A stretch of DNA of 64,000 bases from the NCBI RefSeq assembly GCF_025399835.1, contig NZ_JAODVR010000001.1:1426001-1490000 (forward strand). Reading direction: 5' to 3'. The notes under the pieces were generated by a model. It worked only from the letters and a program-made list of their open reading frames with translations, did no database searches and was not told the DNA's origin. Positions 8,983 to 57,000 of the stretch are shown one piece after another. The position numbers were made by a program, and so were the translations under genes. The DNA is from Haloarchaeobius sp. HME9146 (GTDB lineage: Archaea; Halobacteriota; Halobacteria; Halobacteriales; Natrialbaceae). Position 1 is the stretch's first letter, and every line of letters begins with the position of its first letter.

Positions 8983-9420
8983 TCAGGGCTGTTTGCTGGC
9001 GATGACGTGCTGGATGTGGACGAACTCGTGGAACGACATCGGGGCGCGGCGTTCGATCTTCTGCTGGACCTCGGTCGGGTCCAGGTCGAGCGAGCCGTCG
9101 AGGTCGGCCGCCACGGTCTCGATGTCCATCACGCCGGTCGTCATGCCGAGCAGGAGGTGCTCGCAGGCCATCGTGACCACGGTCTCGGGGTCGGCGACAC
9201 CGTCGGCCAGCGACTGCACTTCCGCGGCCTCTTCGAGACTGAAATCCTCGGGGAGGTCGCCCTCGGCGAGTGCCTTCACGCTCGACTTGTCGAGGCCCGT
9301 CGACCCGACGACCGTGTCGATACCGACGCTGTCGACGACCGCGGCGAGGTCCTCAGCGTACTCGGCTTCGAGGTCGGCCGGCGACAGCCCCGACACGTCC
9401 ATCCGCTGTTCGTGGAACAT
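8983..9420 (-). CDS. DUF5791-type conserved haloarchaeal protein
   Basis: The protein is 145 aa. The ATG at 9420 gives MFHEQRMDVSGLSPADLEAE, matching the start of the haloarchaeal DUF5791 family; it is fully helical, acidic, and ends in EFVHIQHVIASKQP. Function unknown. Its first 68 nt overlap the 3' end of the DUF7286-type gene in another frame, so the two are probably translated from one mRNA, and this gene is the last of the pilus-like cluster. Confidence 0.85.
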   Translation of the reverse strand: MFHEQRMDVSGLSPADLEAEYAEDLAAVVDSVGIDTVVGSTGLDKSSVKALAEGDLPEDFSLEEAAEVQSLADGVADPETVVTMACEHLLLGMTTGVMDIETVAADLDGSLDLDPTEVQQKIERRAPMSFHEFVHIQHVIASKQP

Positions 9421-12400
9421 GAGCGGACGCTTCGGTGGGCCGGTACAAGGGCTTGCTGCATCCGGTCGAGGCGGTCGTGTTCGTGGACTCGCGCGGCGGC
9501 CACACCGTCGGCCCGGGACAGGGCCAGCCCGGCGAGCGCTCGTCCATGTTCCCGTCGAAGTCGCCGACACCGTTCTTGCCGGGCGGGACGACCACCAGCA
9601 CGCCGACTTGATTCTCGAAGGTGACGCGGTCGGCCCGGCCGAGTCGTTCCCGGACGCCGTCGCCGTCGAGGTCGACCGCGACGGGGCCGCCGTCACGACT
9701 GTAGACGAACGACCCACCGGGGTCGTCGGGGCCGCCCTGGCGCGCCCGGACGGTGAACCGGGCGTAGGTCCCGCGGACGTCGACCACCCAGACGTTCGCC
9801 GTGGCGACCCAGGAGTAGAACGGGACGAGGGGCAGGCCCGCGAACACCGACAGCTTCGATTCGTTCCCGTACCGGGACGCCCGCGCCCCGCGGTCGAACT
9901 CGGCTGCCCCCGCCGTGTTGGCCGCCTTGGCCAGCGTGTCCTGTTTCGCCCGGAGGAAGCCCACGGCGTCCGCGACGGCCGCCTCGTCCGTTCTGGCGGT
10001 CTCTGACCGGACGGCGTCTCGTATCGACACTCGCGCGAGGACGGTCAGTTCGTCGCGCCAGCGGGTGGTGTTGGGTCGGGGCGACTGGGCGAGCACCGTG
10101 TCCGCAACCGCGGGCGCAAGCGAGCCGTTCACCGCGGCCTGTGCTCGCGTGCCGGTCGTCGGCCAGCGGTCCAGGGCCGCCGCGACCGCCGTCTCGGCGT
10201 CCGGTCGGTTCAGGTCGGTCTCGGCCGCGAGGTCGGCCGCGACGCGGTCCTGGACGCCCGAGAGCGAGTCCGAAACCGAGGTTTCCAGTGCGGCCCGCTT
10301 CCGGTTTGCTGCTTCCGCCTCGACGAGACTGCTCGCGTACTCCATCGCGACCAGCGCTCGCGTCGCGACCCGCAGGTCGACGGTCGAGGTGTCGGCGTCC
10401 CCGGTCGATGCGTCGACCACGGTGTCGCCCGCGTCGCCGTAGGGGACGGTGAACAGGTTGATGTTCCGCGCCGCGAGGGGGTGAAAGCCCGAGGAGCGGA
10501 TGGCCGGTGCGCGATGGCTCTCGACCTCGTTCACCACCAGGTACGACGGGACGCCGTCGACCGCCAACTGGACCGGCCCGGTCGGGCCGCCGTGGCCGAA
10601 GGACCGGCTCTCGGGGACCGTCGCCCGCTCCTGGGCATCCATCGTCGCCGCCAGGCTGTCGAGGGAGAGGCCGTAGTCTCCGAGGACCGACCCGAGGCCC
10701 TGCCGGCTCCGGGCTGTCGCGTCAGCGCGCTCGCGCAGTTCCGCGCGGACGTGGTCGAGGTAGGCGACGCGAACCGCGGTTCGGGCGCGCTCGGCGACGC
10801 TGTCGTACCGGGCTGGCGCCTCCACGAGTTCTGCTTGCCTTTCCCGTATCCGATTCGCGAGGCCGAGTGCTGGAGTCGCGGTCGTGGCGAGGTCGCCGCG
10901 GGCGCGTTCGACCGAGAGATTCCGGACGGTCTCTCTGAGTTCGGGTAGCCCGGCGTACACGAACGACTCGATTCCTGCTGGGGGCTCGCCGGACAGTCGG
11001 GTCGAGCCCTCGTCGAGGTCTGCGGTGACGGCCCGGCGCGCAAGGGCGTCAGGGCCGCCGCGCGAATCCACGAGGTCCCCTGCGGGGGCCCGCACGTCGA
11101 CCAGATTCCCGCCACCGAGTGGGCCGGGCTGCTCGAACACACCCCGGATGGGTCTGTCAGGGCCGGCTGCGCCCGGCGAGGGAGTCGCGACGACCGCCAG
11201 CCCGACCCGGAAGCGACTGCTGTGGGTCACCGCTGTCACCCGGGTCTCGGGCGAACTCGCGTTCCAGGGCAGGTCGGCGGAGCGGTTCGCAGCTCGCCAG
11301 TGCCACCGCGTCGTCCGGGTGACGTTCACGACGCGCTCGTAGGTCTGCAGGCGGGACAGCCCGTGCTGGGGAGCCGGGAGCGTGGCGTCTCCAGACTCGA
11401 CAGCCGCCGACTCGAATTCCTTGGTCCCGACCAGCTCCCACCCCTCTCCCGGCGATTCGGGTTCCGGTTCCGGCTCGTGGGCGACGCGAGTCACGCTCGC
11501 CCGGAGAGAGACGTCCGCGCTGTAGGTCTCGCGGACGATGTCGGCGAGCGAGTCCGACTCGGAGCCGTCGCCACTCTCGGCCAACAGGTCCCTGAAGGCG
11601 TCGTCAGCGCTCTCGTTGACACCGACCCTGACCGGGTCGCTGGCGGTCGTCTCGGGCTCGGTCGGCGCGGGAATATCCGGCCCGGCGTTGGCGAGCGTCC
11701 CGCCCGGGTCGCCGAGGACGAGATCCAGCCACTCTTCAGGTGAGACCCCGGTCTCGACGGACTGTGCCTGTCCGATGACCTCGCTCGCGAGGATGCGGGC
11801 ACGGGCTCTCCCGAGTGCGCGCTTCCCGGCGTCGTCCGGGCGGCCGAAGCTTCCCTTCTGTGTCGCGAGGGCGGCCTCGTTCGCCGAGAGCGAGACGTAC
11901 GAGGTGGAGAGGACGTTCGAGACGACACCGCCGTCCTGGCCCTGCTTGCCGGCCGTGCTGGTGCCGTACTGGACGTAGCCTCGCGCCCATGCCCAGGCGT
12001 ACAGGCGGGCGGCGAACTGCCGACCGAAACCGGGTCCCTCCGTCGGGCCGCGGTTCAGCCGGGCCTCGAAGTCGGTCACGCGCTCGTGGACGAGCAGGAC
12101 GGGGGTCGCGGCGGTGAACCGGACCGTCCGTTCCTCGACGGCGACGACCCGGCCGCCGACGCGAACCCTGACGGTGACGTTCTCGATTCGGACTCGCATG
12201 GTCCCGTTGCCGGTCTGTTCGAGGTGGACTCGGTGTTTCGCCAGCCGTGCCGTGGTCGGGTCGGCGATGAGCGGCAGACTCGCCATCGCGTGGGCGTCCC
12301 CGACACGAACGTCGACCTCCGAGAGCGCGGTCTGTACCTGCCGGTAGATTCGCAGGCGAAGCACGTCACGGAACGGTGCCGAATCGTTCAGAATCCGGCC

Positions 12401-12646
12401 GTAGGGCGTGTCCGCGGTCGACAGCACGGGGTTCGCGCCGGCGTTGGCGCTCGCCCGCCGGACTGCGCCCCGGAGCGCGGTGCTCACTGCGGTATCGGCC
12501 CGTTCTGCGGCGAGGTCCGCCTGTGGGGTTGCCCCGCCGGGTGCTCGCGTCGCGAGCGTGCCGACCAGCGTCGCGCTACTGACCAGCAGAAGGACGCCGA
12601 CGAGGGCGAAGGGGACCCGCGCCCGCTCGTCATCTGCCAGTCTCAC
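9353..12646 (-). CDS. DUF7286-type large exported/membrane protein of pilus cluster
   Basis: The protein is about 1097 aa. GTG at 12646 is preferred because it overlaps the preceding stop as GTGA, the coupling used elsewhere in this cluster; a GTG at 12655 is also possible. One N-terminal hydrophobic helix (FALVGVLLLVSSATLVGTL, about 11-29) is followed by a very long extracellular region with several helical stretches rich in Ala/Arg/Glu and beta-rich parts, ending near a glycine/aspartate segment. I recall this as DUF7286, always found with PilB/PilC-like genes in haloarchaea. It is probably a surface subunit or assembly scaffold. The C-terminal tail of about 25 residues after ERSPGW overlaps the next gene and may be non-conserved. 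Confidence 0.85.
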   Translation of the reverse strand: MRLADDERARVPFALVGVLLLVSSATLVGTLATRAPGGATPQADLAAERADTAVSTALRGAVRRASANAGANPVLSTADTPYGRILNDSAPFRDVLRLRIYRQVQTALSEVDVRVGDAHAMASLPLIADPTTARLAKHRVHLEQTGNGTMRVRIENVTVRVRVGGRVVAVEERTVRFTAATPVLLVHERVTDFEARLNRGPTEGPGFGRQFAARLYAWAWARGYVQYGTSTAGKQGQDGGVVSNVLSTSYVSLSANEAALATQKGSFGRPDDAGKRALGRARARILASEVIGQAQSVETGVSPEEWLDLVLGDPGGTLANAGPDIPAPTEPETTASDPVRVGVNESADDAFRDLLAESGDGSESDSLADIVRETYSADVSLRASVTRVAHEPEPEPESPGEGWELVGTKEFESAAVESGDATLPAPQHGLSRLQTYERVVNVTRTTRWHWRAANRSADLPWNASSPETRVTAVTHSSRFRVGLAVVATPSPGAAGPDRPIRGVFEQPGPLGGGNLVDVRAPAGDLVDSRGGPDALARRAVTADLDEGSTRLSGEPPAGIESFVYAGLPELRETVRNLSVERARGDLATTATPALGLANRIRERQAELVEAPARYDSVAERARTAVRVAYLDHVRAELRERADATARSRQGLGSVLGDYGLSLDSLAATMDAQERATVPESRSFGHGGPTGPVQLAVDGVPSYLVVNEVESHRAPAIRSSGFHPLAARNINLFTVPYGDAGDTVVDASTGDADTSTVDLRVATRALVAMEYASSLVEAEAANRKRAALETSVSDSLSGVQDRVAADLAAETDLNRPDAETAVAAALDRWPTTGTRAQAAVNGSLAPAVADTVLAQSPRPNTTRWRDELTVLARVSIRDAVRSETARTDEAAVADAVGFLRAKQDTLAKAANTAGAAEFDRGARASRYGNESKLSVFAGLPLVPFYSWVATANVWVVDVRGTYARFTVRARQGGPDDPGGSFVYSRDGGPVAVDLDGDGVRERLGRADRVTFENQVGVLVVVPPGKNGVGDFDGNMDERSPGWPCPGPTVWPPRESTNTTASTGCSKPLYRPTEASAHVPRTADGRVGAVAGRPRSRVR

Positions 12647-13527
12647 GCCGACCACGTCCTGACGGTGACGACGACGGTCCCTGGTGCAATCGCGTCGGCT
12701 GCCGTGGCTGGCGAGTCATATCGACTGCGAAGCGCAGGTTCGACCCGCCCCGCGAGGGCCGCGGTCAGTCGCTGGTTGGCGCGATGGGCCGCCGCCTCGT
12801 CGAGTGTGCCGTCGAGGTCCGTCCCCAGGAATCCGGCCGCGCGGCGGTACCGGTACGCGGTCAGGCGGTCGCCCGGGTAGTCGCCGAGCAGGGCGAGGTG
12901 GCCCCGGTCCGGCGGGAACAGGGTTCCAATCGTGCACGAGGCCGTCCTGTAGGCCAGGTCGTTCCAGTCGTCGGGGGCGGAGGTGTCGACCACTGGCCCC
13001 ACCGCGACCCGGACGCTCGCCGCGTGCACGTCGGTGGACGCCGGCGGTGTGTCTCCCACGGTGACCTGCCCGCGAACCGGGCCTTCGCCGGTCGGTTCCC
13101 AGGTCGCGACGACCTGCCAGTCATGGTCCAGGCCGCCGAGTCGTCGGTGTGTCGTGTTCGCGACGGCGCGCTCGAACTCGTTGCCAGCGTGCGAGATGGG
13201 CTGTCCGTCGACGGTGGCGTTCGCGATGGCGGCGCGGGCGAGCAGGTCGGCCAGCGACCCGTGGCTCTGGCGGTCGAACGCCTCGCCCTCGGTGTCGGGG
13301 AACGAGACGAGCGACTGGTCAGCTCGCCGTGCTCCCGGCGCGAGGGAGTACTCGACCGTCGCGGTCGTGGCGCCGAGGAGTTCGACGGCGTGGTCGGCTC
13401 CGGTCGCGTCGGAGCGGTCGGGACGCTCGGCGGTCACGACCACGAGGACGCTCGCCGAGACGAGCAGCAGGCAGAGCGTCACGTCGAGGACCGTACTGAC
13501 CCCCCGTGACTGCTCGCCAGGTCTCAC
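12643..13527 (-). CDS. DUF7284-type pilin-like protein
   Basis: The protein is about 294 aa from GTG at 13527, which overlaps the previous TGA as GTGA; a GTG at 13533 is the alternative. RGVSTVLDVTLCLLLVSASV at the N-terminus resembles a class III signal/pilin H-domain: a short charged leader, then a hydrophobic helix. The remainder is a beta-rich extracellular domain. I recall it as DUF7284, part of the haloarchaeal pilus-like cluster. It is a likely minor pilin-like subunit. Confidence 0.83.
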   Translation of the reverse strand: MRPGEQSRGVSTVLDVTLCLLLVSASVLVVVTAERPDRSDATGADHAVELLGATTATVEYSLAPGARRADQSLVSFPDTEGEAFDRQSHGSLADLLARAAIANATVDGQPISHAGNEFERAVANTTHRRLGGLDHDWQVVATWEPTGEGPVRGQVTVGDTPPASTDVHAASVRVAVGPVVDTSAPDDWNDLAYRTASCTIGTLFPPDRGHLALLGDYPGDRLTAYRYRRAAGFLGTDLDGTLDEAAAHRANQRLTAALAGRVEPALRSRYDSPATAADAIAPGTVVVTVRTWSA

Positions 13528-13946
13528 GGCCACACCTCCACGCGCAGGGTCCCACTGACCACGACGCCCGGGTCGAGTCGGACGCTGACCGGTCGGACCG
13601 CGGTCGAAACGTCCGGCGGCGCGGCGGGACCAGCCCGCCAGCGCTCGCCCTCGGCGGTGAGCGTGACGGCGACGTGGTAACCGTCGGGACCGGCCGTAGC
13701 CGCGGCGGCAGCGAGGCGCTCCGGGTTCGCGATGCCATCGGGCGCGACTGCGGCGTGGGCTTGCCCGAGCGTGGGCGTCGCGAGGTCGCGACGAACCTCG
13801 TCGCCGCCGTCGACCCGCGCCAGCGTGGAATCGAGCGTCCCGGCGAACAGCGCGAGGCCGACACAGACGGCGAAGACGGCCACGAGCGCGGCCGATGGCT
13901 CCAGCTGCCCCCGACAGTCTGTGGTCGCGGCTTGCCCGCTACGCAT
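13524..13946 (-). CDS. DUF7285-type TadE-like pilus-cluster protein
   Basis: The protein is 140 aa from ATG at 13946, which overlaps the preceding stop by 8 nt; an ATG at 13961 is less likely. The N-terminus MRSGQAATTDCRGQLEP is followed by one membrane helix SAALVAVFAVCVGLALFAG (about 18-36). RGQLEP before the helix recalls the processing region of archaeal pilin-like proteins. The rest is a small beta domain. I recall the family as DUF7285. Confidence 0.82.
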   Translation of the reverse strand: MRSGQAATTDCRGQLEPSAALVAVFAVCVGLALFAGTLDSTLARVDGGDEVRRDLATPTLGQAHAAVAPDGIANPERLAAAAATAGPDGYHVAVTLTAEGERWRAGPAAPPDVSTAVRPVSVRLDPGVVVSGTLRVEVWP

Positions 13947-14421
13947 GGACCAGCGTGACATTCGTCCCCTCCCAGTGGACGCGGGTGATCAGGAGTCGGC
14001 TCCCGGCGGGTCGCCACCGTGGCTCGCCGGCGCTGGCGTGCGTCCGGGCTTCGGCGACGGCCTCGGCGAAGGCCGCTGGCGAGTCGAACACGCTCTCGGA
14101 CGGCGTGCCGGTCGCGACCCGGTGGAGCCGGGTACCGGTCGTGACGGGGACGACCGGGCCGAACGCGAAGCGCGCGTGGGCGGCCCCGCCGGCGTTCCGG
14201 AGCGAGAGGCGGTGGGTGTCGAGGCGGATCGCACTCGCGTCAATCGGGTGCTCTGCCGTGGTCGGGTACGAGGCGGCCGCGACCGCGTCGACGGTGTCGG
14301 CGGCGGCCGCCGCGTCGGGAGCGGGTCTGGTCGGCAGTTCGACTGCCACGCCTGCGACGGCGAGGCTCGCCGCCGCGAGGCCGACCCAGCAGTACCACGC
14401 GTCTATCGGGAGGTCTGGCAT
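13939..14421 (-). CDS. DUF7283-type pilus-cluster protein
   Basis: The protein is 160 aa from ATG at 14421. MPDLPIDAWYCWVGLAAASL is followed by more hydrophobic residues to about residue 30, forming a single N-terminal membrane anchor or pilin-like helix; the rest is a beta-rich extracellular domain. Start choice rests on the promoter: TTCAAG at 14446-14451 (minus) is exactly 30 nt upstream, giving a leaderless message. It begins a second transcript of the cluster that runs through DUF7285, DUF7284, DUF7286 and DUF5791 with overlapping genes. Confidence 0.83.
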   Translation of the reverse strand: MPDLPIDAWYCWVGLAAASLAVAGVAVELPTRPAPDAAAAADTVDAVAAASYPTTAEHPIDASAIRLDTHRLSLRNAGGAAHARFAFGPVVPVTTGTRLHRVATGTPSESVFDSPAAFAEAVAEARTHASAGEPRWRPAGSRLLITRVHWEGTNVTLVHA

Positions 14422-14429
14422 GGCGCGTC

Positions 14430-14451
14430 TGGCCGCGGGTTCGTACTTGAA
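14430..14451 (-). promoter_or_regulatory. Promoter with TATA and GCGGCCA element (DUF7283 operon)
   Basis: On the minus strand TTCAAGTACG (from 14451) is the TATA box, GCGGCCA at 14436-14430 lies at -15 to -9 from the ATG, and the ATG is at 30 nt from the first T. The same three-part spacing occurs before the ATPase and DUF7310 genes and before the three structured RNAs. The 22 bases from TTCAAG to the end of GCGGCCA match the RNA promoter at 56979-57000 at all but one position. Confidence 0.7.
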
Positions 14452-14568
14452 GGCTTGGCTGCGATTGGAAGCAAGGGATGGTCTCGTCGCTGTCGATGGG
14501 GCCTGTGTGGACGTAGTTGCGTTGGTGGGTCGTGGTGGCGTTGGTGGGCGGTGACGACGAGCGTCGTG

Positions 14569-14803
14569 CTCGCGCTGGCGGAGATGGAGACCGCACCACA
14601 GCCTCCCCAGCCGACTCCCTCCGCTCCGCGATGCTTCGCTCCGGTCGTCCCTCGCGCACCGCTGGCTCGCGGCCTGCTCACGGCTTCTTCTCGCGGGCTC
14701 TCGGCCCGCTCGAATGGTTCGCGGAACTTCGTTCCGCGCTATCGCCGTTCGCTTCGAGGCACTCCGTGCCTCGCCCGGCACGCTCGCCAGCGCGCGCCAC
14801 AGT
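14569..14803. repeat. Hairpin-rich dispersed intergenic element, copy A
   Basis: The 402-nt gap 14422-14823 holds no gene. Apart from the DUF7283 promoter it carries this 235-nt element, colinear with 61737-61970. The shared head is CTCGCGCTGG then GATGGAGACCGCA, next CCGCACCACA-CCTCCCCAGCC, then blocks such as GCTTCGCTCC and TCCCTCGCGC, ending GCGCGCCA. Inside are perfect mini-hairpins: CGCGGAAC-TTC-GTTCCGCG (14720-14738), CGAGGCAC-TCC-GTGCCTCG (14755-14773) and GCGGGC-TCTCG-GCCCGC (14693-14709). It follows directly after the TadC gene, so it could end or attenuate that transcript. Confidence 0.65.
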
Positions 14804-14823
14804 GGCAATTCGGTTTCCGTCGT

Positions 14824-16566
14824 TCACACCACCGCCCCGGCGGCCAGGAACGCCCCGAGGTACACCAGCGCCGCGGTCGGGAGGGCCCGGCCCACGCGCA
14901 CACCCAGGAGGCTCCGGTCCAGCCCGTGCTGGAGTCCGGTCGCGAGTACGGTGAGGACGACCGAGAGCACGAGAACGTAGGCACCCACGGCGAGCCCGAG
15001 GTCGGCCGTGGCGAGGGCTGGGGCGGTGGCTGCGGCCGGGTCGCCACCCGCCAGGGACCCTGTCCCACCGTCGAGTCGCATCCCGTCCGCGAGCGCGACC
15101 GTCGCACCGGCGACCAGCGGCCCGAACGTCGTCGCGGTGCTTCGCAGGGTCCCCGTCACCCGGGCGAGGTCGTGCTGGCACTCGCGTTCGAGGGCCTGGA
15201 GGTCCTCCAGGTGGTCGGCCATCGAGACGAGGGCACGCCCGGCTGGCGCGCCCTCGTCGGCAGCCAGTCCGAGCAACGCGGCCGTGCTTCGGGCGCGGGG
15301 ACTCGGAACGGTTGCGAGCGCGCCGTGCTCGCCCAGGAAGGCCTCGCGCACGCCGACCCGGAGCTGTCGCTGGCGGCGGCACGCCTCGGTCAGGACGGCT
15401 CCTGTTTCCCCGGCGACCTCGCTCGCTGCGTGGTCGAGCGCGGCCTCGACGGCGTCGCCCTCGGCGACCCGACGGCCGACGAGGTAGAGCGCGTCGACGA
15501 GGTTCGACTCGACGGCCGTCGCGTGGTCCCGGACGGTCGAGACGGGGCGGAACCAGACCGAGAGCGCGACGCCCGTGGCGAGTGCGGGGGCGACCAGTGG
15601 AACCAGCCAGTCCGGTGCGAGCAGGGGAACGGCGAAGACCGCCACCGTCAGCGTAACCCCGCCGGCAGCCAGCGCTCGCCAGGGGCGGTCCGGCACGGCC
15701 GGATGGTCCCGCGTGACCGCCGGTGGCGGGAACGCGACCGGCCGTCGGGTGAACAGCCAGGCGCTGGCGACGACGAGCCCGACAGGGAGCAGCCCATCGT
15801 ATATCACGACGAGTGCGCCGAGCGTCACCGGGATTCCGGCGACCCGGGCCGCAGGCAGGACCGCGACGAGCGCGAGCGGGAGCAGGACGCCGAAGGCGTA
15901 GATGGCGGTGACCGGTCCCTGCACGGTCGCGGTGAAGGTGGCGAGCCGGTCACGGGTGCCCCGGAGGACCGCCGTCATCGCCCGGTCGAGGGTCCGGACG
16001 CGCTCACCGGCTGGCGCGTCGGCCGCCGCCTCGACGAGGTGGAGTGCGCGCCGGAGGGCCGGGAAGGCGTCGTGCCACGCCGCGACGAACGACCCGAACC
16101 CGGTTTCTGGGGTTCCGGCTGCCCGGCGGACGTGGCGGCCGAGACTGGCGGCCAGCGGGCCGTCGTCTGTCTCGGCGGCGAAGGCGGCTGCACCCTCGGC
16201 TGTCGGCTCGATGTGCATCCGGAGGACGGCGCGACCGACGAGGTCCGGGGCATCGCCGAGCGCGGCGGTCTGCCGGAGGCTCGCCAGCCAGACGGGAATC
16301 GAGTGGACCGCGTGCGCGAGGGCGAGGCCCACCGCGAGTGCAACCACCGGGACCGTGGCGGGGGCGAAGCCGGGGGCCGTACCGGCGACCGCGACGGGGA
16401 CCGCGCCGAGGGCGGCTGTCACGTAGCCCGCTCGAGTCACCGTCTCCGGGGCGAGGTCGCTCTCGAGGAACGCGAGGGCCTGCCCGAGGTCGTCGCCGGG
16501 GTCGACGGGCCAGGGGTAGCCCCGGGCGAGATGTCGACAGGACCACGTCCCGAGGCCGCTCAACAC
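14824..16566 (-). CDS. PilC/TadC-type membrane platform protein (type II secretion F family)
   Basis: The protein is 580 aa from GTG, overlapping the ATPase stop by 7 nt. It has two repeated blocks of membrane helices (about 45-105 with 215-285, and about 300-345 with 480-580) separated by cytoplasmic helical domains, the double T2SSF layout of archaeal TadC proteins. VEAALDHAASEVAGETGAVL near residue 380 belongs to the second cytoplasmic T2SSF domain. It would anchor the ATPase and drive assembly of pilin-like subunits in the cytoplasmic membrane. Confidence 0.88.
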   Translation of the reverse strand: MLSGLGTWSCRHLARGYPWPVDPGDDLGQALAFLESDLAPETVTRAGYVTAALGAVPVAVAGTAPGFAPATVPVVALAVGLALAHAVHSIPVWLASLRQTAALGDAPDLVGRAVLRMHIEPTAEGAAAFAAETDDGPLAASLGRHVRRAAGTPETGFGSFVAAWHDAFPALRRALHLVEAAADAPAGERVRTLDRAMTAVLRGTRDRLATFTATVQGPVTAIYAFGVLLPLALVAVLPAARVAGIPVTLGALVVIYDGLLPVGLVVASAWLFTRRPVAFPPPAVTRDHPAVPDRPWRALAAGGVTLTVAVFAVPLLAPDWLVPLVAPALATGVALSVWFRPVSTVRDHATAVESNLVDALYLVGRRVAEGDAVEAALDHAASEVAGETGAVLTEACRRQRQLRVGVREAFLGEHGALATVPSPRARSTAALLGLAADEGAPAGRALVSMADHLEDLQALERECQHDLARVTGTLRSTATTFGPLVAGATVALADGMRLDGGTGSLAGGDPAAATAPALATADLGLAVGAYVLVLSVVLTVLATGLQHGLDRSLLGVRVGRALPTAALVYLGAFLAAGAVV

Positions 16567-18425
16567 GGTTCCCCCGGCAGGTCTGCGGGGTCGGTTCGCC
16601 CGTCAGCGACCAGTGCTGCCAGCTGGTCTGTCCGGTCGGCGAGGGCCGCTCGGACGTCCGCGTAGGTCTCCGTCGGTCCGGCGAGCGATGCCACGAGGGC
16701 GCTCTCGCCGCGGTCGATCCGGCCGGTCGAGGCGAGCGTCGTCCCGTCGAGTTCGAACAGGGACTCGAAGTGCACGCCATCAGCACCGGTCCGGACCTCC
16801 TCGATGCTCGCGACCCGACGCTGGGTTCCGGTGTCGGTCTCGACGGGGCGGCAGGTGACGACCAGGTCGGTGACGCCGAAGGAGGACTCGGGGACGCCGA
16901 GATCGGCGACGACGCGCTCGCGCACGTCGGCCCCGCCGTCGCCGTGGATGGTTCCGAGGACCGCGCTCCCGCTCGCGCCGACCCGCATCGCCTCGTAGAG
17001 GACGCGGGCCTCCTCGCCCCGGACCTCGCCGACGACCAGTGCGCCCTCACCGAGTCGCAGGGCGGTCCGGAGCGCCTCGTCGGGGGCGACGCTCGGCCCG
17101 TCGCCGGTGGTGGTGTGGAGGGCCTGTACGTCGCGCCCGCCAGCCTGGAGCGCCGAGACGGGCAGCTCCGGGGTGTCCTCGATGACGACGGTTCGGGTCT
17201 GGCGCGGGAGTTCCCACAGCAGCGCCCCGAGCGTCGTCGTCTTGCCTGCGCCGCGGGTCCCGGCGACGAGTATCGCGGCGGCACGCGCGACCGCCAGCGA
17301 GAGGAAGCCGGCCGCCTCGGCGGTGAGGCTCCCGGCGGCGACGAGTCGCGGGAGGGTCCAGGCGTCGCGCCCGTTCCGCCGGAAGGCGAACCCGTACCCA
17401 TCGCTGACGGGGCGGGTGACGCCCGCGACGCGAACCGGGTCGCCGGCCATCTCGGCCGTGGCATCGAGCGTCGGACTGGCCCGGGAGAAGGCGCGCCCGC
17501 TCTCCTGGCGGAACCGGGAGGCCAGCGCGCCTGCCGCCGCCTCGGTGAGCCGGACGTTCGTCGGCATGGTGTGTCCCCCGGCGGTGACACGGAGCGGCGT
17601 CTCCCTGACCGGCGCGGAGGCGAACACGTCCGAGACGGCCGGGTCGCCGAACAGGTCGGTGAGGACGCCGTACTCGCGGGTGTGCTTGCGGAGGATGCGA
17701 GTGAGGGTCTCGACCGGGGCAGCGTCGTCGGCGACCGCCCGGACCGCCCGCCCTGGTGCTCGCGCCGCCCCGTCGATTCGGCCATCGGCGAGGTGAGCGT
17801 AGGCGTCCGCGAGTGTCTCGAGGGCCGGTTCGTCGAGCCGTGACTCGATGGGTTCGAGGTGGTAGCACCGCCGGCCCGTGGCGTCCTCGTACTCCCGGAC
17901 GGTCGCATCGGTTCTTGCCTCGCGCGTGGCGACGAGCGTCGCACCGGGTGGGAGTGACGCCGCGATTCGCGCCTTGCTGACGGGTGGCCCCGAGAACGGG
18001 CGCAATGCGTCCTCGTAGCCGGCGGCCCGGTCTGCGAGGAGCGCGAGGCCGGTCTCGGCGACGAGGTCGGCGACCGGGCCTGCCCGAGCCGTCGCGTCGG
18101 CCGCGGCGCGCAGTGGGTCGGTCCGGGTACGACCCGCCAGCACCGGGTCGTGGAAGGCGGCCGCGTCGGCGAACCGGCCGGCTGCGACCAGCAACGCGGC
18201 CGCGTCGTCCTCGTAGGCCCGTTCCAGCCCGGCGGCCCTGACGACCACGCGCTCGGCGTCTCGGGATTCCAGGGCCACGATGGCGGTCGCCCGGCAGTCC
18301 GGGTCGGTCGCGAGGTCGCCGCCGGGGCAGTCTGTCGCGTCGAGCAGTAGCCGGTCACCCTCGAAGGAGACGGTGCAGCCGCAGGGGTCGTCGGTGCCGG
18401 TGCCGAGCAGCGAGTGCAGTGACAT
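16560..18425 (-). CDS. PilB/GspE/TadA-type pilus assembly ATPase
   Basis: The protein is 621 aa from ATG at 18425 (leaderless, TTTAAA 30 nt upstream). An N-terminal region of about 70 aa carries several cysteines (DPCGC near 15, then Cys near 33 and 44) and may bind metal. The secretion ATPase core follows, with Walker A LVAGTRGAGKTTT at about 388-400, the Asp box VIEDTPELPV, and Walker B ALVVGEVRGEEA. It hydrolyses ATP to power pilin-like polymer assembly with the TadC-type protein encoded immediately downstream. Confidence 0.92.
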   Translation of the reverse strand: MSLHSLLGTGTDDPCGCTVSFEGDRLLLDATDCPGGDLATDPDCRATAIVALESRDAERVVVRAAGLERAYEDDAAALLVAAGRFADAAAFHDPVLAGRTRTDPLRAAADATARAGPVADLVAETGLALLADRAAGYEDALRPFSGPPVSKARIAASLPPGATLVATREARTDATVREYEDATGRRCYHLEPIESRLDEPALETLADAYAHLADGRIDGAARAPGRAVRAVADDAAPVETLTRILRKHTREYGVLTDLFGDPAVSDVFASAPVRETPLRVTAGGHTMPTNVRLTEAAAGALASRFRQESGRAFSRASPTLDATAEMAGDPVRVAGVTRPVSDGYGFAFRRNGRDAWTLPRLVAAGSLTAEAAGFLSLAVARAAAILVAGTRGAGKTTTLGALLWELPRQTRTVVIEDTPELPVSALQAGGRDVQALHTTTGDGPSVAPDEALRTALRLGEGALVVGEVRGEEARVLYEAMRVGASGSAVLGTIHGDGGADVRERVVADLGVPESSFGVTDLVVTCRPVETDTGTQRRVASIEEVRTGADGVHFESLFELDGTTLASTGRIDRGESALVASLAGPTETYADVRAALADRTDQLAALVADGRTDPADLPGEPC

Positions 18426-18433
18426 ACCGGCGG

Positions 18434-18455
18434 TGGCCGCGGTCTCGGATTTAAA
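18434..18455 (-). promoter_or_regulatory. Promoter with TATA and GCGGCCA element (ATPase gene)
   Basis: On the minus strand GAGTTTAAATCC has TTTAAA at 18455-18450, GCGGCCA at 18440-18434 and ATG at 18425: spacing 30 and 15, identical to the other promoters of this set. The CCGCGG palindrome overlaps GCGGCCA. Confidence 0.7.
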
Positions 18456-18508
18456 CTCGGGGACGAGACGGGGCGGGGACGGTCGGCGAGCGACCTGCCC
18501 GACACCGG

Positions 18509-18949
18509 TCACGACCGGGCGACGTGGACCCCATCCGCCGCCAGGGTGAGGACGAGACGATGACTCCCGCTCCCGTCCAGGACCAGCGGCGCGCCGTCAG
18601 CCGTGTGCAGGGCGACGCCGGTCCGGACTTGCTGTACCGGTCCGCCGGCCAGCCGATACGACAGGAGACGCGAGTCCGGGTCGCCGGGCACCCCACCGAC
18701 CGCGACCCACTCGACCTCGCGAGTCGTCCAGGCGGCATCGGGGAGCCGAACCGTCACCAGCCGGCGCGCTCCCGGCCCGCTGATTCGGTCCTCGCTGGCG
18801 ACGAGGCCGTTGGCTGCGCGTTCCAGCCGGGCGAGGTCGGTCGAGACCTGCTGGTCGCTCCTGTGCTCGCGAGCGTCGTCCAGTGCCGGCGCAGTCACGG
18901 CCAGCAGCGCCAGCGCGAGAGCGACCGAGAGAACGGGACGGACGCTCAC
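18509..18949 (-). CDS. DUF7311-type exported pilus-cluster protein
   Basis: The protein is 146 aa from GTG at 18949, which overlaps the DUF7310 stop as GTGA and so is translationally coupled. SVRPVLSVALALALLAVTAP is a signal peptide or anchor, followed by a small soluble domain with helices (DLARLERAANGLVAS) and beta strands. Family recalled as DUF7311, found next to the PilB-like ATPase in haloarchaea. Function unknown. Confidence 0.82.
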   Translation of the reverse strand: MSVRPVLSVALALALLAVTAPALDDAREHRSDQQVSTDLARLERAANGLVASEDRISGPGARRLVTVRLPDAAWTTREVEWVAVGGVPGDPDSRLLSYRLAGGPVQQVRTGVALHTADGAPLVLDGSGSHRLVLTLAADGVHVARS

Positions 18950-19497
18950 AGGACCTCTCGGATACGGGCGAGGAGCCCCCCTTGCTCGCTGTCCTCCTCG
19001 GAAGTTGGTATCGTGTACGGGTCGCCGTCGTCGGTCGGACCCTCCGAGTACTGGCGGGCTGACCCGCCGCCGTGGCGGCTCGTGCGGGTGGACCATTCGG
19101 CGGCCAGCGCACTGTCGGGTGGGTCGGCGCGGTCGGACGTTCCCTCGGTCTGTCTCCGGGCACTGGCCTCGAGTTCCTCGACCCGGGCCTCCAGCGACTC
19201 GACCGCAGCGAGCGCTCCATCCGCGCGTTTCTCCACCCGCTCGTTCACGCTCCGGACGTTGCCGGCGTACCCGCGCAGCGCCTGAACCGCGGCGTCGAGC
19301 TCGGCGACGGTGGCCTCGAGTTCGTCGAGCCGGTCGGTGAGCCTGGCTGCCCTGTTCTCGCCCGGCGTGGTCCCGTCGGTCGGTCCCGCTTCCGGGGCCG
19401 TCCCGACGGAGTCGACACCCATCGTTCCCGGGACCGCATCGTCGTCGGAGATGGCGCGCTCGACCGCCCGCAGTCGGTCGTTCAGTTGGTCGGACAT
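18946..19497 (-). CDS. DUF7310-type coiled-coil protein
   Basis: The protein is 183 aa, soluble. A coiled coil spans about 50-117 (RLTDRLDELEATVAELDAAV and following heptads), then a disordered acidic linker and a short amphipathic end GGLLARIREVL. It is the first gene of the pilus-like cluster, leaderless from TTTAAA at 19527-19522. It may act as an adaptor between the ATPase and other cytoplasmic parts; this is inference from position and coiled coil only. Confidence 0.85.
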   Translation of the reverse strand: MSDQLNDRLRAVERAISDDDAVPGTMGVDSVGTAPEAGPTDGTTPGENRAARLTDRLDELEATVAELDAAVQALRGYAGNVRSVNERVEKRADGALAAVESLEARVEELEASARRQTEGTSDRADPPDSALAAEWSTRTSRHGGGSARQYSEGPTDDGDPYTIPTSEEDSEQGGLLARIREVL

Positions 19498-19505
19498 GTC
19501 GCCAC

Positions 19506-19527
19506 TGGCCGCGGCCTGGTATTTAAA
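19506..19527 (-). promoter_or_regulatory. Promoter with TATA and GCGGCCA element (DUF7310 gene)
   Basis: On the minus strand GGCTTTAAATACC has TTTAAA at 19527-19522 and GCGGCCA at 19512-19506, with ATG at 19497 (spacing 30 and 15). Here the element is a perfect palindrome GGCCGCGGCC at 19507-19516. It sits in the 76-nt divergent gap shared with the CetZ gene. Confidence 0.7.
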
Positions 19528-19573: not shown

Positions 19574-20653
19574 ATGAAAGTCGTCCTGATCGGTGTCGGA
19601 CAGGCTGGTGGGAAGATCGCCCAGTCACTGGCCGAGTTCGACTACAACATGGACTTCGACGCGGTGCAGGGTGCGCTCGCGGTCAACTCCGCGCACGCAG
19701 ACCTCCAGAATCTGGACATCGAGACGCAACTCGTCGGCCAGGATACGGTGAAAGGGCACGGCGTCGGCGGTGACAACGAACTCGGCGCACAGGTGATGCA
19801 AGACGACGCCATCGAGGTCATGGACAGCCTCGACGGGAAGATCACGGCGCAGGCGGAGGCCATCTTCGTCATCGCCGGCCTCGGCGGCGGAACCGGCTCC
19901 GGCGGTGCCCCGGTCCTCGTCCGCGAACTCCAGCGCGTCTACGACCTTCCCATCTACGCGCTGGGCGTCCTCCCCGGCCGCGGCGAGGGGTCGATGTACC
20001 AGGCCAACGCCGGTCGGTCGCTCAAGACCGTCGTGCGCGAGGCCGATTCGACCATCCTCGTGGACAACGACGCCTGGCACGACGCCGGCGAGTCCATCGA
20101 GGGGGCCTTCGACAGCATCAACCAGAACATCGCCCAGCGTATCGGCCTGCTGTTCGCCTCGGGCGAGGCGGTCGAGGGCGTCGGCGAGAGCGTCGTCGAC
20201 ACCTCCGAGGTCATCAACACGCTCCGCGAGGGCGGCATCGCCTGCATGGGCTACGCCAGCGCCATCTCGGGCGAGACCGCCGAGGACAACATCAACGCCG
20301 TCACCAGCGTCACCCGGTCCGCACTGTTCACCGGGACGAGCCTTCCCGATGCCGTCACGGCGGACTCCGCACTGCTGGTCGTCGCAGGTCGCCCCGAGGC
20401 GATTCCGCGGAAGGGCGTCGAACGCGCCCGGCGCTGGGTCGAGGACCAGACCGGCTCGATGCAGGTCCGTGGCGGCGACTTCCCGCTGGATTCGGACCGC
20501 ATCGCCGCGCTCGTCCTCCTCGGTGGCGTCGAGCGCTCGCCCCGCATCGAGGAGTTCATGGAGCGCGCTCGCGAGGCCCAGCAGCAACAACAGAAAGCAC
20601 CCGAGGACCACGCCGCGAACTTCCGCAACGACGACCTCGAAGACCTGTTCTGA
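19574..20653 (+). CDS. cetZ: CetZ-family tubulin-like GTPase
   Basis: The protein is 359 aa starting MKVVLIGVGQAGGKIAQ. The tubulin signature GLGGGTGSGGAP lies at about 103-114; the GTP-binding GVGQAGG loop at 7-13 and QGALAVNSAHADL also fit CetZ rather than FtsZ. The C-terminus is a glutamine-rich linker and a short acidic tail NDDLEDLF. CetZ proteins form filaments controlling cell shape and motility in haloarchaea; which paralogue this is cannot be assigned. It is divergent from the pilus-like cluster, 76 nt away. Confidence 0.93.
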   Translation: MKVVLIGVGQAGGKIAQSLAEFDYNMDFDAVQGALAVNSAHADLQNLDIETQLVGQDTVKGHGVGGDNELGAQVMQDDAIEVMDSLDGKITAQAEAIFVIAGLGGGTGSGGAPVLVRELQRVYDLPIYALGVLPGRGEGSMYQANAGRSLKTVVREADSTILVDNDAWHDAGESIEGAFDSINQNIAQRIGLLFASGEAVEGVGESVVDTSEVINTLREGGIACMGYASAISGETAEDNINAVTSVTRSALFTGTSLPDAVTADSALLVVAGRPEAIPRKGVERARRWVEDQTGSMQVRGGDFPLDSDRIAALVLLGGVERSPRIEEFMERAREAQQQQQKAPEDHAANFRNDDLEDLF

Positions 20654-26692: not shown

Positions 26693-27637
26693 ATGGGTTT
26701 GCTCATCGGTACCCCGGGGGGTCTCTTTCGCACCAGTGACGGCTTCGAGACCGTCGAACGGACGCTCGACGCGCGGGTCAATCGACTTCGCGTGTTCGAC
26801 GCCGGTGCGTTCGCCGCGACACCGGCCGGTCTCTATCACTCCGAGGACGGCTGGGAGTGGAGGAAACTCGAATCGTTCGCCGGTCCGGTCCACTCGATGG
26901 CCGTCAGCCCCGACGAGGCGTACTGGTACGTCGGCATCCGGCCCGCGGCCGTCTACGTCTCCGAGGACGGTGGAGCGACGTGGGACGAGTCCGATGGCTT
27001 CCAGAACTTGCCTTCCCGCGACCGCTGGCGCGACCGCGCACCCGGCGACGACGCCGCGGTTCGGACCATGGCCGTCCACAGCAGCGCACCCGACAGGCTC
27101 GCGGTCGGTGTCGAACCGGGTGGGGTCTTCGTCAGCGTCGATGGCGGCTCGACCTGGAACGACCGGACTGCCGGGGTCCACGACGACGTCCACCACCTCC
27201 TCGCGCTGGAGATAGACGAGTACCTCGCAGCCACCGGGAACGGCCTCTACCGCACCACCGATGCGGGCCGGTCGTGGCTCCGACAGGACACCGACTTTCG
27301 CGACTTCTGGTTCAACTACTTCCGCGAGTCCATCGCCCACGACGGGACCCTCTACACTGCCGCGAACGGCTGGGGGCCGTCCGCCCCCGGCGGTGCGGTC
27401 TTCGAGACCCCGGTCGACGAGACGGGGCGGGAGGCGACACGCGTTCCGTATCCGGGCGAGAAGGAGTCGTTCGTCGTCTCCTGGGCGACCGACGAGGACG
27501 ATATCTACGCGGGTACCCTGCGAATCGACGACGGGTTCCAGCAACGCGCTCCAGGCCGTATCCTCCGACGCGAGGAACACGGCTGGATCCAGGTCGGTGA
27601 GGTTCCCACTGCCGCGCGGTCGCTCGCCACGATTTAA
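26693..27637 (+). CDS. BNR/sialidase-type beta-propeller protein
   Basis: The protein is about 314 aa from ATG at 26693; ATGs at 26687 and 26645 are possible. MGLLIGTPGGLFRTSDGFET opens a series of repeats with Asp-box-like turns: SEDGWEW, SEDGGATWDES, SVDGGSTWND and TTDAGRSW. This is a 6- or 7-bladed propeller of the sialidase/VPS10-like type without catalytic residues, and without signal peptide, so probably a cytoplasmic binding scaffold. Its TAA stop (27635-27637) lies inside the TATA box of the RNA element that follows. Confidence 0.88.
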   Translation: MGLLIGTPGGLFRTSDGFETVERTLDARVNRLRVFDAGAFAATPAGLYHSEDGWEWRKLESFAGPVHSMAVSPDEAYWYVGIRPAAVYVSEDGGATWDESDGFQNLPSRDRWRDRAPGDDAAVRTMAVHSSAPDRLAVGVEPGGVFVSVDGGSTWNDRTAGVHDDVHHLLALEIDEYLAATGNGLYRTTDAGRSWLRQDTDFRDFWFNYFRESIAHDGTLYTAANGWGPSAPGGAVFETPVDETGREATRVPYPGEKESFVVSWATDEDDIYAGTLRIDDGFQQRAPGRILRREEHGWIQVGEVPTAARSLATI

Positions 27638-27654
27638 ATCGGAGCGAGCGGCCA
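27633..27654 (+). promoter_or_regulatory. Promoter of structured RNA, copy 1
   Basis: TTTAAA at 27633-27638 and GCGGCCA at 27648-27654 precede ATG at 27663 by exactly 30 and 15 nt, the same architecture as the pilus-cluster promoters. The TATA box overlaps the stop codon of the propeller gene. Confidence 0.65.
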
Positions 27655-27662
27655 CTCGCGGT

Positions 27663-27746
27663 ATGTCCTGACCACGCGCCCGGTCGCACCACGCGGTTGT
27701 GCGACACACTGCGACCGGGAACAACTGGGTGTCGCCTGTTCGCCAG
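27663..27746 (+). ncRNA. Candidate pseudoknot small RNA, copy 1
   Basis: This 84-nt element starts ATG-TCC-TGA-CC at the predicted transcription start. Stem P1 pairs CCCGGTCGCA (27679-27688) with TGCGACCGGG (27710-27719), 10 bp. Stem P2 pairs GCGACAC (27701-27707) with GTGTCGC (27729-27735), 7 bp. The order P1-P2-P1-P2 makes an H-type pseudoknot with loops of 12, 2 and 9 nt. Loop 1 contains the conserved CGCGGTTGT and the element ends CTGTTCGCCAG. A competing hairpin GTCGCAC/GTGCGAC (27683-27689 with 27699-27705) would exclude both stems, so it might switch. Two relatives lie at 39031 and 56890. Family not recognised. Confidence 0.65.
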
Positions 27747-39030: not shown

Positions 39031-39112
39031 CAGGCGAACAGACGGTACGAGAACGACACACGCCGGTGTACCGTGCAGCCGCGGACCGGGCGTGTGGTGA
39101 CGGTCAGAACAC
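39031..39112 (-). ncRNA. Candidate pseudoknot small RNA, copy 2
   Basis: This 82-nt element, between convergent genes, starts GTG-TTC-TGA-CC at 39112. P1 pairs CACACGCC (39096-39089) with GGCGTGTG (39064-39057), extended after a bulged C by GGT/ACC. P2 pairs ACGGTAC (39074-39068) with GTACCGT (39048-39042). The strands interleave as in the other copies; loop 1 holds CCGCGGCTGC, loop 3 has 8 nt, and the tail CTGTTCGCCTG (39041-39031) follows P2 at once. P2 differs from the other copies at several pairs yet stays fully paired. Confidence 0.65.
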
Positions 39113-39120
39113 GGCCCGGT

Positions 39121-39142
39121 TGGCCGCCTACTCGTATTTCAA
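39121..39142 (-). promoter_or_regulatory. Promoter of structured RNA, copy 2
   Basis: On the minus strand TTGAAATACG (TTGAAA 39142-39137) and GCGGCCA (39127-39121) precede GTG at 39112 by 30 and 15 nt. The same spacing is found in the other five promoters of the set. Confidence 0.65.
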
Positions 39143-55378: not shown

Positions 55379-55994
55379 GATACTCGTCGTCGACAATTAC
55401 GACTCGTTCGTCTACAACCTCGTCCAGTACGTCGGCGAGCTGGCCGACAGCGTCGTCGTCCGCCGGAACGACGCTATCGACGTGGCTGGCATCGAGGAAC
55501 TGGACCCGGACGGTATCGTCGTCTCGCCGGGGCCGGGCACGCCCGCGGAAGCTGGGGTCTCCATCCCGGTGTTCCGCGACCTCGACTATCCGACGCTGGG
55601 GGTGTGCCTGGGGCACCAGGCGCTCTGTGCGGCCAACGGCGCGCCGGTGGTCCACGCCCCCGACGTGGTCCACGGGAAGCCCTCTGTCATCACCCACGAC
55701 GGGCAAGGGATCTTCGCGGATGTGCCCGACCGGATTCGCGTCGGGCGCTACCACTCGCTGGCGGTCGAACGGGCGGACCTCCCCGACTCGCTGGTCGAGA
55801 CGGCCGCGACCGACGACGAACGCGACGTGCTGATGGCGGTGCGCCACCGCGAGAAACCGCACGTCGGCGTGCAGTTCCACCCCGAGAGCATCCTCACGGG
55901 CGACGTGAGCGAACCGGCGGCCGGCGCGCACCTGTCGCTCCGCGTCGGCAAGCGACTCGTTGCGACGTTCATCGACCAATGCGATACCACGTAG
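55371..55994 (+). CDS. pabA: Glutamine amidotransferase, component II (PabA/TrpG type)
   Basis: The protein is 207 aa, class I amidotransferase. [18 protein letters not shown] at the start; catalytic Cys in [10 protein letters not shown] near 79-88; His and Glu in [11 protein letters not shown] near 167-177. It supplies ammonia from glutamine to component I. It overlaps pabB by 8 nt and pabC by 16 nt, so the three are translated as one unit. Confidence 0.94.
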
Positions 55995-56893
55995 ACGGCG
56001 AACTGGTCCCGGCCGAGGACGCGACAATCAGCGTCCGGGACCGGGGATTCCAGTACGGTGACGCAGCGTTCGAGACCATGCGGGCCTACGGCGGCGACGT
56101 GTTCGAGTGGGAAGCCCACGCCGACCGGTTGCGCCGCTCGTGCGATACTCTCGGGTTCGACCACGGGTTCCCCGACGAGGAGCTTCGCGCTCGCATCGAC
56201 GAGACGCTCGACGCGAACGACCTCGAAGACGCCTACGTCAAACTCTCGGTGACTCGTGGCATCCAGCCCGGGACGCTCGCCCCTCAGCCCGAAGTCGACC
56301 CGACGGTGGTCGTCATCGTCAAGCCACTGTCCAGGGGTGGCAAGGGAGCGGATCCAGTCTGGGACGGTCCCGCCGTCCTCCAGACGACGAAGACACGCAA
56401 GCCGCCGGCGAACGCACTCCCACCCCGGGCGAAGACCCACAACTACCTGAACGGTATCCTCGCCCGGAACGAGCTGGTCGAAGGTGCCGACGAAGCTCTG
56501 CTTCGCGACCAGGCGGGGAACGTCTGCGAGGGCGCGACGAGCAACCTCTTCTTCGTGAACGAGCACGGCCTGCACACCCCGAGTGCAGAGCTCCCGCTCC
56601 TGCCGGGCATCACCCGCAAGGTCGTGCTCGAACTCGCCGAGGAGGAGGGCATCCCGGTGTGGCAGGACCGCTATGGGCTGGAGGACGTCCGGACCGCGGA
56701 CGAGGCGTTCCTGACGAACTCGACGTGGGAGCTTCGGCCGGTCGCGACGGTCGATGGGCTGGACGTGGGCGGTGGCCCCGTCACCGACCTGCTCCGGAGC
56801 AAGTTCGCCGCGCTCGTCGAGCGTCGCCACTACGATGGTGAGCGACTGGAGGAAGCGCCGTCGGAGTCCGGGGCTCCCGAGGACACAGACTAG
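55979..56893 (+). CDS. pabC: Class IV PLP enzyme, probable aminodeoxychorismate lyase
   Basis: The protein is 304 aa from ATG at 55979. Class IV fold: ISVRDRGFQYGDAAFETMRA near 19-38, the PLP lysine in PRAKTHNYLNGILARN near 140-155, GNVCEGATSNLFFV near 178-191 and LLPGITRKVVLEL near 205-217. In this operon it most likely splits aminodeoxychorismate to pABA and pyruvate; a branched-chain or D-amino-acid aminotransferase role cannot be excluded by sequence alone. Its stop overlaps the 3' tail of the minus-strand RNA element. Confidence 0.9.
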   Translation: MRYHVDGELVPAEDATISVRDRGFQYGDAAFETMRAYGGDVFEWEAHADRLRRSCDTLGFDHGFPDEELRARIDETLDANDLEDAYVKLSVTRGIQPGTLAPQPEVDPTVVVIVKPLSRGGKGADPVWDGPAVLQTTKTRKPPANALPPRAKTHNYLNGILARNELVEGADEALLRDQAGNVCEGATSNLFFVNEHGLHTPSAELPLLPGITRKVVLELAEEEGIPVWQDRYGLEDVRTADEAFLTNSTWELRPVATVDGLDVGGGPVTDLLRSKFAALVERRHYDGERLEEAPSESGAPEDTD

Positions 56894-56970
56894 CGAACAG
56901 GCGACGCGAATCGAGACCACGCGCGGGGGCGTCGCGCAACCGCGGACCGGCGCGTGGCGGGTCAGTGCAC
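56890..56970 (-). ncRNA. Candidate pseudoknot small RNA, copy 3
   Basis: This 81-nt element starts GTG-CAC-TGA-CC at 56970. P1 pairs CCACGCGC (56957-56950) with GCGCGTGG (56924-56917), 8 bp, and can continue past a C-C mismatch with GG/CC. P2 pairs GCGACGC (56935-56929) with GCGTCGC (56907-56901), 7 bp. Interleaved order as in the other copies; loop 1 has CCGCGGTTGC, loop 3 has 9 nt, tail CTGTTCGCTAG (56900-56890). It lies between convergent genes and its tail is antisense to the pabC stop. Confidence 0.65.
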
Positions 56971-56978
56971 GCCGACGC

Positions 56979-57000
56979 TGGCCGCGGTTTCGTACTTGAA
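56979..57000 (-). promoter_or_regulatory. Promoter of structured RNA, copy 3
   Basis: On the minus strand TTCAAGTACG (TTCAAG 57000-56995) and GCGGCCA (56985-56979) precede GTG at 56970 by 30 and 15 nt. Across these 22 bases it differs from the DUF7283 pilus promoter at one position. Confidence 0.65.

Follow-up and report, generated by a model that had tools for sequence, protein, structure and literature searches.

The bar minigenes of phage lambda are two-codon minigenes. In bacteria, such minigenes, exemplified by mg2 in axe-txe, have a single sense codon between start and stop, and when so short an ORF is translated, ribosomes, tRNAs or the stability of the mRNA can be affected (PMC8708949). 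Minigenes ending in UAA have been reported to be more toxic than those ending in UGA, and the mg2 study counts threonine codons, which are frequent as the middle codon of the present RNA family, among the toxic ones (PMC8708949). Bacterial minigenes are led by Shine-Dalgarno sequences and lie inside longer mRNAs, whereas the predicted haloarchaeal minigene is leaderless and stands at the 5' end of a dedicated pseudoknot RNA of ~81 nt that occurs in up to 39 copies per genome.

Small RNAs that act on ribosomes have been described in haloarchaea as well. In Haloferax volcanii, rancRNA_s194 binds the 50S subunit and inhibits peptide bond formation, and like the present family it is a haloarchaeal sRNA encoded between genes and about 100 nt in length, with ribosome binding as the proposed common feature; by its description it differs in being 97 nt long with C-stretches near the 3' end, and neither a start-stop nor a pseudoknot is reported for it (PMC6104027). 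H. volcanii also has sRNAs with ribosome occupancy and no protein product, and its sRNA_61, of 111 nt, is very abundant (PMC12482152); judged by description, footprints accompanied by no detectable peptide are what an RNA with a two-codon ORF would be expected to give. A further point of comparison is given by the Ced/Ups DNA-exchange systems of Sulfolobales, which comprise pili and a HerA-like ATPase that are induced together; their abstracts mention no small RNA (PMC11868833, PMC9905601). The haloarchaeal gene set discussed below differs from them in its DUF7283-7286 proteins, its PLD nuclease and its Cas4-like protein.

Three copies of a pseudoknot RNA in the window

The window is the whole 64,000-nt stretch that was analysed (G000:C1:1426001-1490000), part of a 4.19-Mb haloarchaeal genome. 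It contains three copies of the RNA, scored below with a covariance model (R1) built from 17 aligned copies.

27633..27662, plus strand: promoter of copy 1 (sequence, position-wise conservation in 70 copies, promoter-only scan)
27633-27640, plus strand: TATA element of copy 1, TTTAAATC, at -30
27648-27654, plus strand: GCGGCCA of copy 1, at -15 to -9
27663..27671, plus strand: predicted two-codon leaderless ORF of copy 1, ATG-TCC-TGA (family-wide stop conservation)
27663..27745, plus strand: pseudoknot RNA of copy 1 (73.1 bits with R1; covariation)
27679-27688 with 27710-27719, plus strand: P1 of copy 1, 10 bp (read from sequence)
27701-27707 with 27729-27735, plus strand: P2 of copy 1, 7 bp (read from sequence)
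27693-27700, plus strand: loop motif of copy 1, GCGGTTGT (read from sequence)
27736-27744, plus strand: tail of copy 1, CTGTTCGCC (read from sequence)
39033..39142, minus strand: copy 2, TATA element and pseudoknot RNA (74.2 bits with R1)
39142-39134, minus strand: TATA element of copy 2, TTGAAATAC (sequence)
39112 (+1) down to 39033, minus strand: RNA of copy 2, beginning with GTG-TTC-TGA (sequence)
56892..57000, minus strand: copy 3, TATA element and pseudoknot RNA (73.4 bits with R1)
57000-56992, minus strand: TATA element of copy 3, TTCAAGTAC (sequence)
56970 (+1) down to 56892, minus strand: RNA of copy 3, beginning with GTG-CAC-TGA (sequence)

The upstream plus-strand gene ends at 27637, its stop codon falling within the promoter of copy 1, and ATGTCCTGACC begins at 27663, the predicted +1. 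Copies 2 and 3 have their parts in the same order as copy 1, and the RNA 3' end of copy 3 runs into the stop codon of a gene that converges on it (55979-56893). An initial annotation of this DNA had described the elements common to the three segments, and direct reading finds all of them in the order and spacing that it gave; its 10-bp P1, 7-bp P2 and loops of 12, 2 and 9 nt in copy 1 are exact. Its description of copy 1 as the founding copy is unsupported, this copy being one among dozens.

A multi-copy family of Halobacteriales

A composite pattern derived from the three copies matches 15 places in the same genome, compared with none for the reversed pattern. With R1, 33 copies are detected there at E<0.01, which bears out the annotated presence of several copies per genome, and 35 at E<1, while five congeners hold 26-34 copies each. 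With a broader covariance model (R2), the family is detected in 225 of the 392 Halobacteriales genomes sampled and in 55 of 95 genera, the copy numbers from this order-wide search being lower bounds. Deeper searches (E<=0.1 in G003) give 36 copies in G003 and 39, 30, 29, 19, 18, 14, 13, 12, 5, 3 and 2 in eleven other genomes, and copy number ranges from 0 to 39 per genome. Carriers include Halobaculum, Haloarcula pellucida, Halomarina, Halobellus, Halorarius and Halobacteriales MAGs. Two candidates, L088 (a coding-region false positive) and L103 (with a misplaced boundary), were dropped from the set. In the genome of the window the detected copies are confined to the main 3.49-Mb contig, which has copy-free gaps at ~0.22-0.68 Mb and ~1.99-2.68 Mb.

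Outside Halobacteriales no member appears among the listed matches of a 295-genome sample of the phylum, and low-GC genomes yielded few candidates, so that absence there is uncertain. No family member was found on viral contigs, and single-copy queries gave no match in plasmids or phages. The annotation had named no known family for the RNA, in line with which Rfam 15 gives no match at gathering thresholds across the whole window, and at relaxed thresholds only weak matches far below the gathering scores of the families concerned; the literature searched likewise holds no description of it.

Pseudoknot structure and covariation

Across 100 copies from six genomes, P1 is paired in 94.3% of cells and P2 in 97.8%, and double-sided changes occur in 10/10 pairs of P1 and 7/7 pairs of P2. 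The drawn structure (P1, P2 and a P2 extension) has a covariation score of 0.569 as against 0.168 for shuffled alignments; none of 500 shuffles scored as high, and slid structures reached at most 0.115. P2 is the cleaner test, because the alignment was fitted to P1 and not to P2. The RNA is thus an H-type pseudoknot, with two interleaved helices that are both supported by covariation. This is the fold that the annotation had proposed, and the further homologues with covarying P1 and P2 by which it was to be checked exist, all 17 pairs covarying in these 100 copies. That the family and its pseudoknot are real can be regarded as practically certain. It is a new multi-copy family of haloarchaeal small RNAs, each predicted to be independently transcribed, with a median length of 81 nt from the predicted start (81-84 nt in the annotation).

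P2 is flanked by the loop GCGGKUGY, before its 5' strand, and by CUGUYMGCC, after its 3' strand; these two, rather than the middle codon, hold the most invariant sequence of the RNA. The annotated tail CTGTTCGCYWG is conserved as CTGTTCGCC plus one A/C, while its CYWG ending is not. Conservation stops one base past the tail, where no T-run is present. P1 begins at a median of +16, and in 74% of copies within +16 to +19.

Several other structural candidates were rejected. The P2 extension, GCGG with UUCGC, is 94% compatible with pairing and has no double-sided changes, and is therefore taken as a conserved internal-loop motif and not as a proven helix. The switch-like stem of the annotation (27683-27689 with 27699-27705) can be drawn in copy 1, but over 100 copies it is paired at the shuffle level (50.2% vs 50.3%), which discounts a conserved second state. 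The upstream GCCG..CGGC dyad has little pair covariation in 70 copies as an RNA hairpin and is consequently treated as part of the promoter. The tail form CUGUUCGCC may resemble the A-loop of 23S rRNA, and this likeness was not used, as the tail varies (CUGUCAGCC, CUGUUAGCC). CTGA occurs near the 5' end and no RUGAUGA is found in the conserved elements, unlike in archaeal C/D box sRNAs, which have C (RUGAUGA) and D (CUGA) boxes both terminally and internally.

P1 is different in nearly every copy in the genus of the window, in contrast to the genus of G132 (L262-L276) and G153 (L280-L281), where it is nearly uniform among paralogues (CCCCGCGTCGGG...), which suggests recent amplification or homogenisation. 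In G011, L365 and L385 keep the promoter and the start-stop with an apparently decayed RNA 3' half, and are possible remnants of the RNA.

A two-codon ORF with a selected stop at the predicted 5' end

Positions +1 to +9 read as start codon, any codon and stop codon in 221 of 231 distinct copies. The RTG-NNC-TGA motif at +1 had been seen in the initial annotation, which missed its reading as codons. The third triplet is TGA in 216 copies, TAA in 8, TAG in 4 and a non-stop in 3. If positions 8 and 9 were merely purines, TGG would be expected; it occurs in none of 216 TGR triplets, compared with TAG in 4 of 12 TAR triplets (Fisher p=4.5e-6), and its absence indicates that the stop codon is selected. 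The twelve TAA/TAG copies represent separate loci, spread over at least seven genomes. Furthermore, the search model rewards TGA and penalises departures generally, with nothing to favour TAG over TGG, so this contrast is unlikely to be a search artefact. The third triplet is thus very probably a selected stop codon.

The start is ATG or GTG in 223 of the 231 copies (GTG 183, 79%; ATG 40, 17%), and seven copies keep the stop and have no canonical start. In G046, copy L338 (around 1500) carries a three-codon ORF, ATG-CCC-CAG-TAG, in place of two codons. No amino acid is fixed at the middle codon (Arg 63, Thr 55, Ser 33, Ile 20 and Pro 18 of 231), which is never A-final and is G-first in 9/231, compared with 47% in the genes of the window. 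The sequence thus has the three parts of a two-codon minigene, a start, one sense codon and a selected stop, and their position at the predicted 5' end makes the RNA resemble a leaderless mRNA with a two-codon ORF. Among leaderless Haloferax transcripts GUG is a minor (6%) and weaker start (PMC4983044), and the preponderance of GTG over ATG in the family is the reverse of normal leaderless genes.

A promoter common to the RNAs and a set of protein genes

Upstream of 70 copies the consensus comprises a BRE-like CGA at -36, TTCAAATAC at -30 and G-S-G-G-C-C-A from -15 to -9. A WW element at -10 has been proposed for haloarchaeal promoters (PMC4983044), and GSGGCCA stands where this element would be. 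The annotation had assigned each copy a predicted TATA promoter of its own, with TATA at -30 and GCGGCCA at -15, which is confirmed in sequence, and had overlooked that protein genes share it. A scan of the same genome with the promoter only finds 35 sites, compared with none in the reversed control, most of which precede model-matched RNA copies, while ten precede protein ORFs that begin exactly at RTG. Another site (L292) marks a further, diverged RNA copy, and L288 was set aside as a coding false positive of the pattern. The proteins encoded behind this promoter are an archaeal pilin, DUF7857, DUF7382, DUF7283, DUF7310, a HerA-like ATPase, a T2SSE ATPase, a PLD-domain protein, a MinD/ParA ATPase and, by a weak match, a Cas4-like protein. 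Three of the sites lie in the window.

14419..14451, minus strand: shared promoter (TTCAAGTAC..GCGGCCA..ATG) of the leaderless DUF7283 gene 13939-14421 (promoter scan)
18423..18455, minus strand: shared promoter of the type II/IV secretion ATPase gene 16560-18425 (T2SSE) (promoter scan)
19495..19527, minus strand: shared promoter of the DUF7310 coiled-coil gene 18946-19497 (promoter scan)
9353..19497, minus strand: secretion/pilus-like cluster with these three promoters (gene content)

The cluster encodes DUF7286, DUF7284, DUF7285, DUF7283, a 580-aa protein without assignment, the T2SSE ATPase and DUF7310, and has a CetZ tubulin-like gene (19574-20653) as its divergent neighbour.

In other genomes, most of 30 sites with the same promoter precede homologues of these proteins, and one precedes DUF7311. 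Genomes that are poor in the RNA or lack it retain the promoter on such genes, and add to the set HNH-type nucleases, a NucS_N-like protein (sub-threshold) and Tat-signal proteins with a sub-threshold DUF3006 match. The geometry is that of leaderless genes, with TATA ~30 bp before an A or G that is the first base of the start codon, and it is the same in the RNA copies and in the protein genes with recognisable ORFs, which supports the predicted start of the RNA at RTG. With high confidence, judging from sequence, the RNAs and the protein gene set have this promoter in common. Because the set also occurs in genomes with no detectable RNA, it does not necessarily include the RNA. DUF7283 is found in 12 of 15 RNA-bearing and in 10 of 26 RNA-lacking genomes, a weak co-occurrence because six of the 15 belong to one genus. 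From its gene content, the set may have a role in DNA uptake or exchange.

Genomic context and evolution

All four neighbour orientations are found. The downstream gene is opposing at 23 of the 35 copies in the genome of the window and on the same strand at 12, where it lies at promoter distance, and the copies sit compactly between genes with the 3' end abutting convergent stop codons. These orientations and ends point to stand-alone genes; there is no consistent same-strand downstream gene, as a riboswitch or cis-leader would have.

Between this genome and G003, 25 locus pairs share both neighbours, and hardly any are shared between families. Homology between copies within a genome usually runs from about -40 to the tail, and this limitation to promoter and RNA implies that the unit multiplied separately in different lineages, followed by vertical inheritance with compensatory change. 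Repeats at the ends equal those of shuffles (5-mers 293 vs 286; 6-mers 87 vs 89), so the target-site duplications of a transposable element or MITE are not found there. P1 is rewritten even between the orthologues L078/L080/L081, with 196 of 212 P1 strands distinct, and in the orthologous pairs L045/L075 and L046/L089 the structure is kept while the single-stranded segments and stems are not. Since the copies appear to be equivalent and seemingly keep nothing specific to any one of them, a common partner is likelier than copy-specific mRNA targets.

A ribosome-directed model and its alternatives

With its start-stop selected at the predicted 5' end, the RNA most readily suggests the ribosome as this partner. 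The RNA would begin with the start codon itself, GUG in most copies, then have a single sense codon and the stop, ahead of a pseudoknot from about +16, and 70S ribosomes could load it like a leaderless mRNA. Going by ribosome footprints in general, a 70S ribosome with the start codon in the P site would reach to about that point. A 70S at the 5' end would thus sit against P1, which the first translocation would have to open, and the ribosome would make or attempt a dipeptide and then terminate or stall against the pseudoknot. Stalling, termination, peptidyl-tRNA drop-off and decoy are candidate outcomes, by which the RNA would act on ribosomes as a translation brake or as a ribosome or initiator decoy. 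Made under the same promoter as pilus-like and DNA-handling genes, it would operate in the state in which these are expressed, plausibly DNA uptake or exchange. A probability of roughly 0.45 is given to this explanation as a whole, in which a two-codon minigene RNA engages ribosomes, is co-expressed with the machine encoded by the gene set and is probably a translation brake. Ribosome engagement by itself has slightly better than even prospects, and a brake on translation in a DNA-exchange state is a tentative idea that we consider unlikely as it stands.

Some features speak against the minigene reading. GUG dominates (183/231), yet it would be the weaker start if the family follows leaderless Haloferax transcripts; seven copies have a stop with a non-canonical start; and UGA prevails, while UAA would be the more toxic stop by analogy with bacterial minigenes. 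The early stop could merely bar ribosomes from an RNA that happens to start with RUG. On that account the function would reside in the pseudoknot, for example in protein or 50S binding, and the two-codon ORF would be a safety device only, an immediate stop having been selected because strong leaderless initiation at RUG would otherwise unwind the knot. The selected stop suits this explanation, as does the invariance of the loop GCGGKUGY and the tail CUGUYMGCC rather than the middle codon, but losing the G of RTG would be an easier way to avoid translation, and ATG or GTG is kept in 223/231 copies; both the account and its protective logic are considered rather unlikely.

The remaining explanations leave the ribosome aside. 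A self-spreading mobile or selfish RNA gene, a ~125-bp unit of promoter and RNA that disperses in each lineage with no need of benefit, would explain why homology usually ends at about -40 and the RNA end, why few loci are common to families (though the 25 pairs within the genus share both neighbours) and why copy number varies so widely, whereas long-term compensatory evolution and stop retention indicate selection on each copy, and the searches made gave no target-site duplications and no viral, phage or plasmid match, which leaves this origin improbable. Regulation of mRNAs by base pairing, as most studied archaeal sRNAs are thought to work (PMC6104027), is quite improbable in view of more than 30 near-equivalent copies per genome and of the loss of single strands and stems, with structure kept, in L045/L075 and L046/L089. 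The compact and often convergent placement would agree with a cis-acting element of the neighbours, be it a riboswitch or leader, a terminator or insulator, or a DNA uptake signal. All four orientations occur, however, there is no common downstream gene, each copy has its own predicted promoter, and covariation and the stop codon favour a function at the RNA level, so that such an element is very improbable; the cis-leader or riboswitch reading was rejected because gene contexts disagree among the copies of the genome itself.

Implications

More than half of the haloarchaeal genomes sampled contain the family, often with dozens of copies, and Rfam lacks it. Its combination of RNA structure with a selected two-codon ORF, and the promoter that it shares with the pilus-like gene set, suggest a new kind of ribosome-directed RNA. 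There are genera with just two copies, and haloarchaea are genetically tractable, so the role of the two-codon ORF is directly testable. The conserved set of secretion ATPase, DUF7283-7286, HerA, PLD nuclease, Cas4-like protein and MinD may constitute a haloarchaeal machinery for DNA uptake or exchange. That leaderless start-X-stop pseudoknot RNAs form a class that brakes translation during such a pilus, HerA and nuclease programme is a doubtful proposition at present. If true, a two-codon minigene would for the first time be the core of an RNA class, and the family would provide archaea with a molecular marker of a competence-like regulon.
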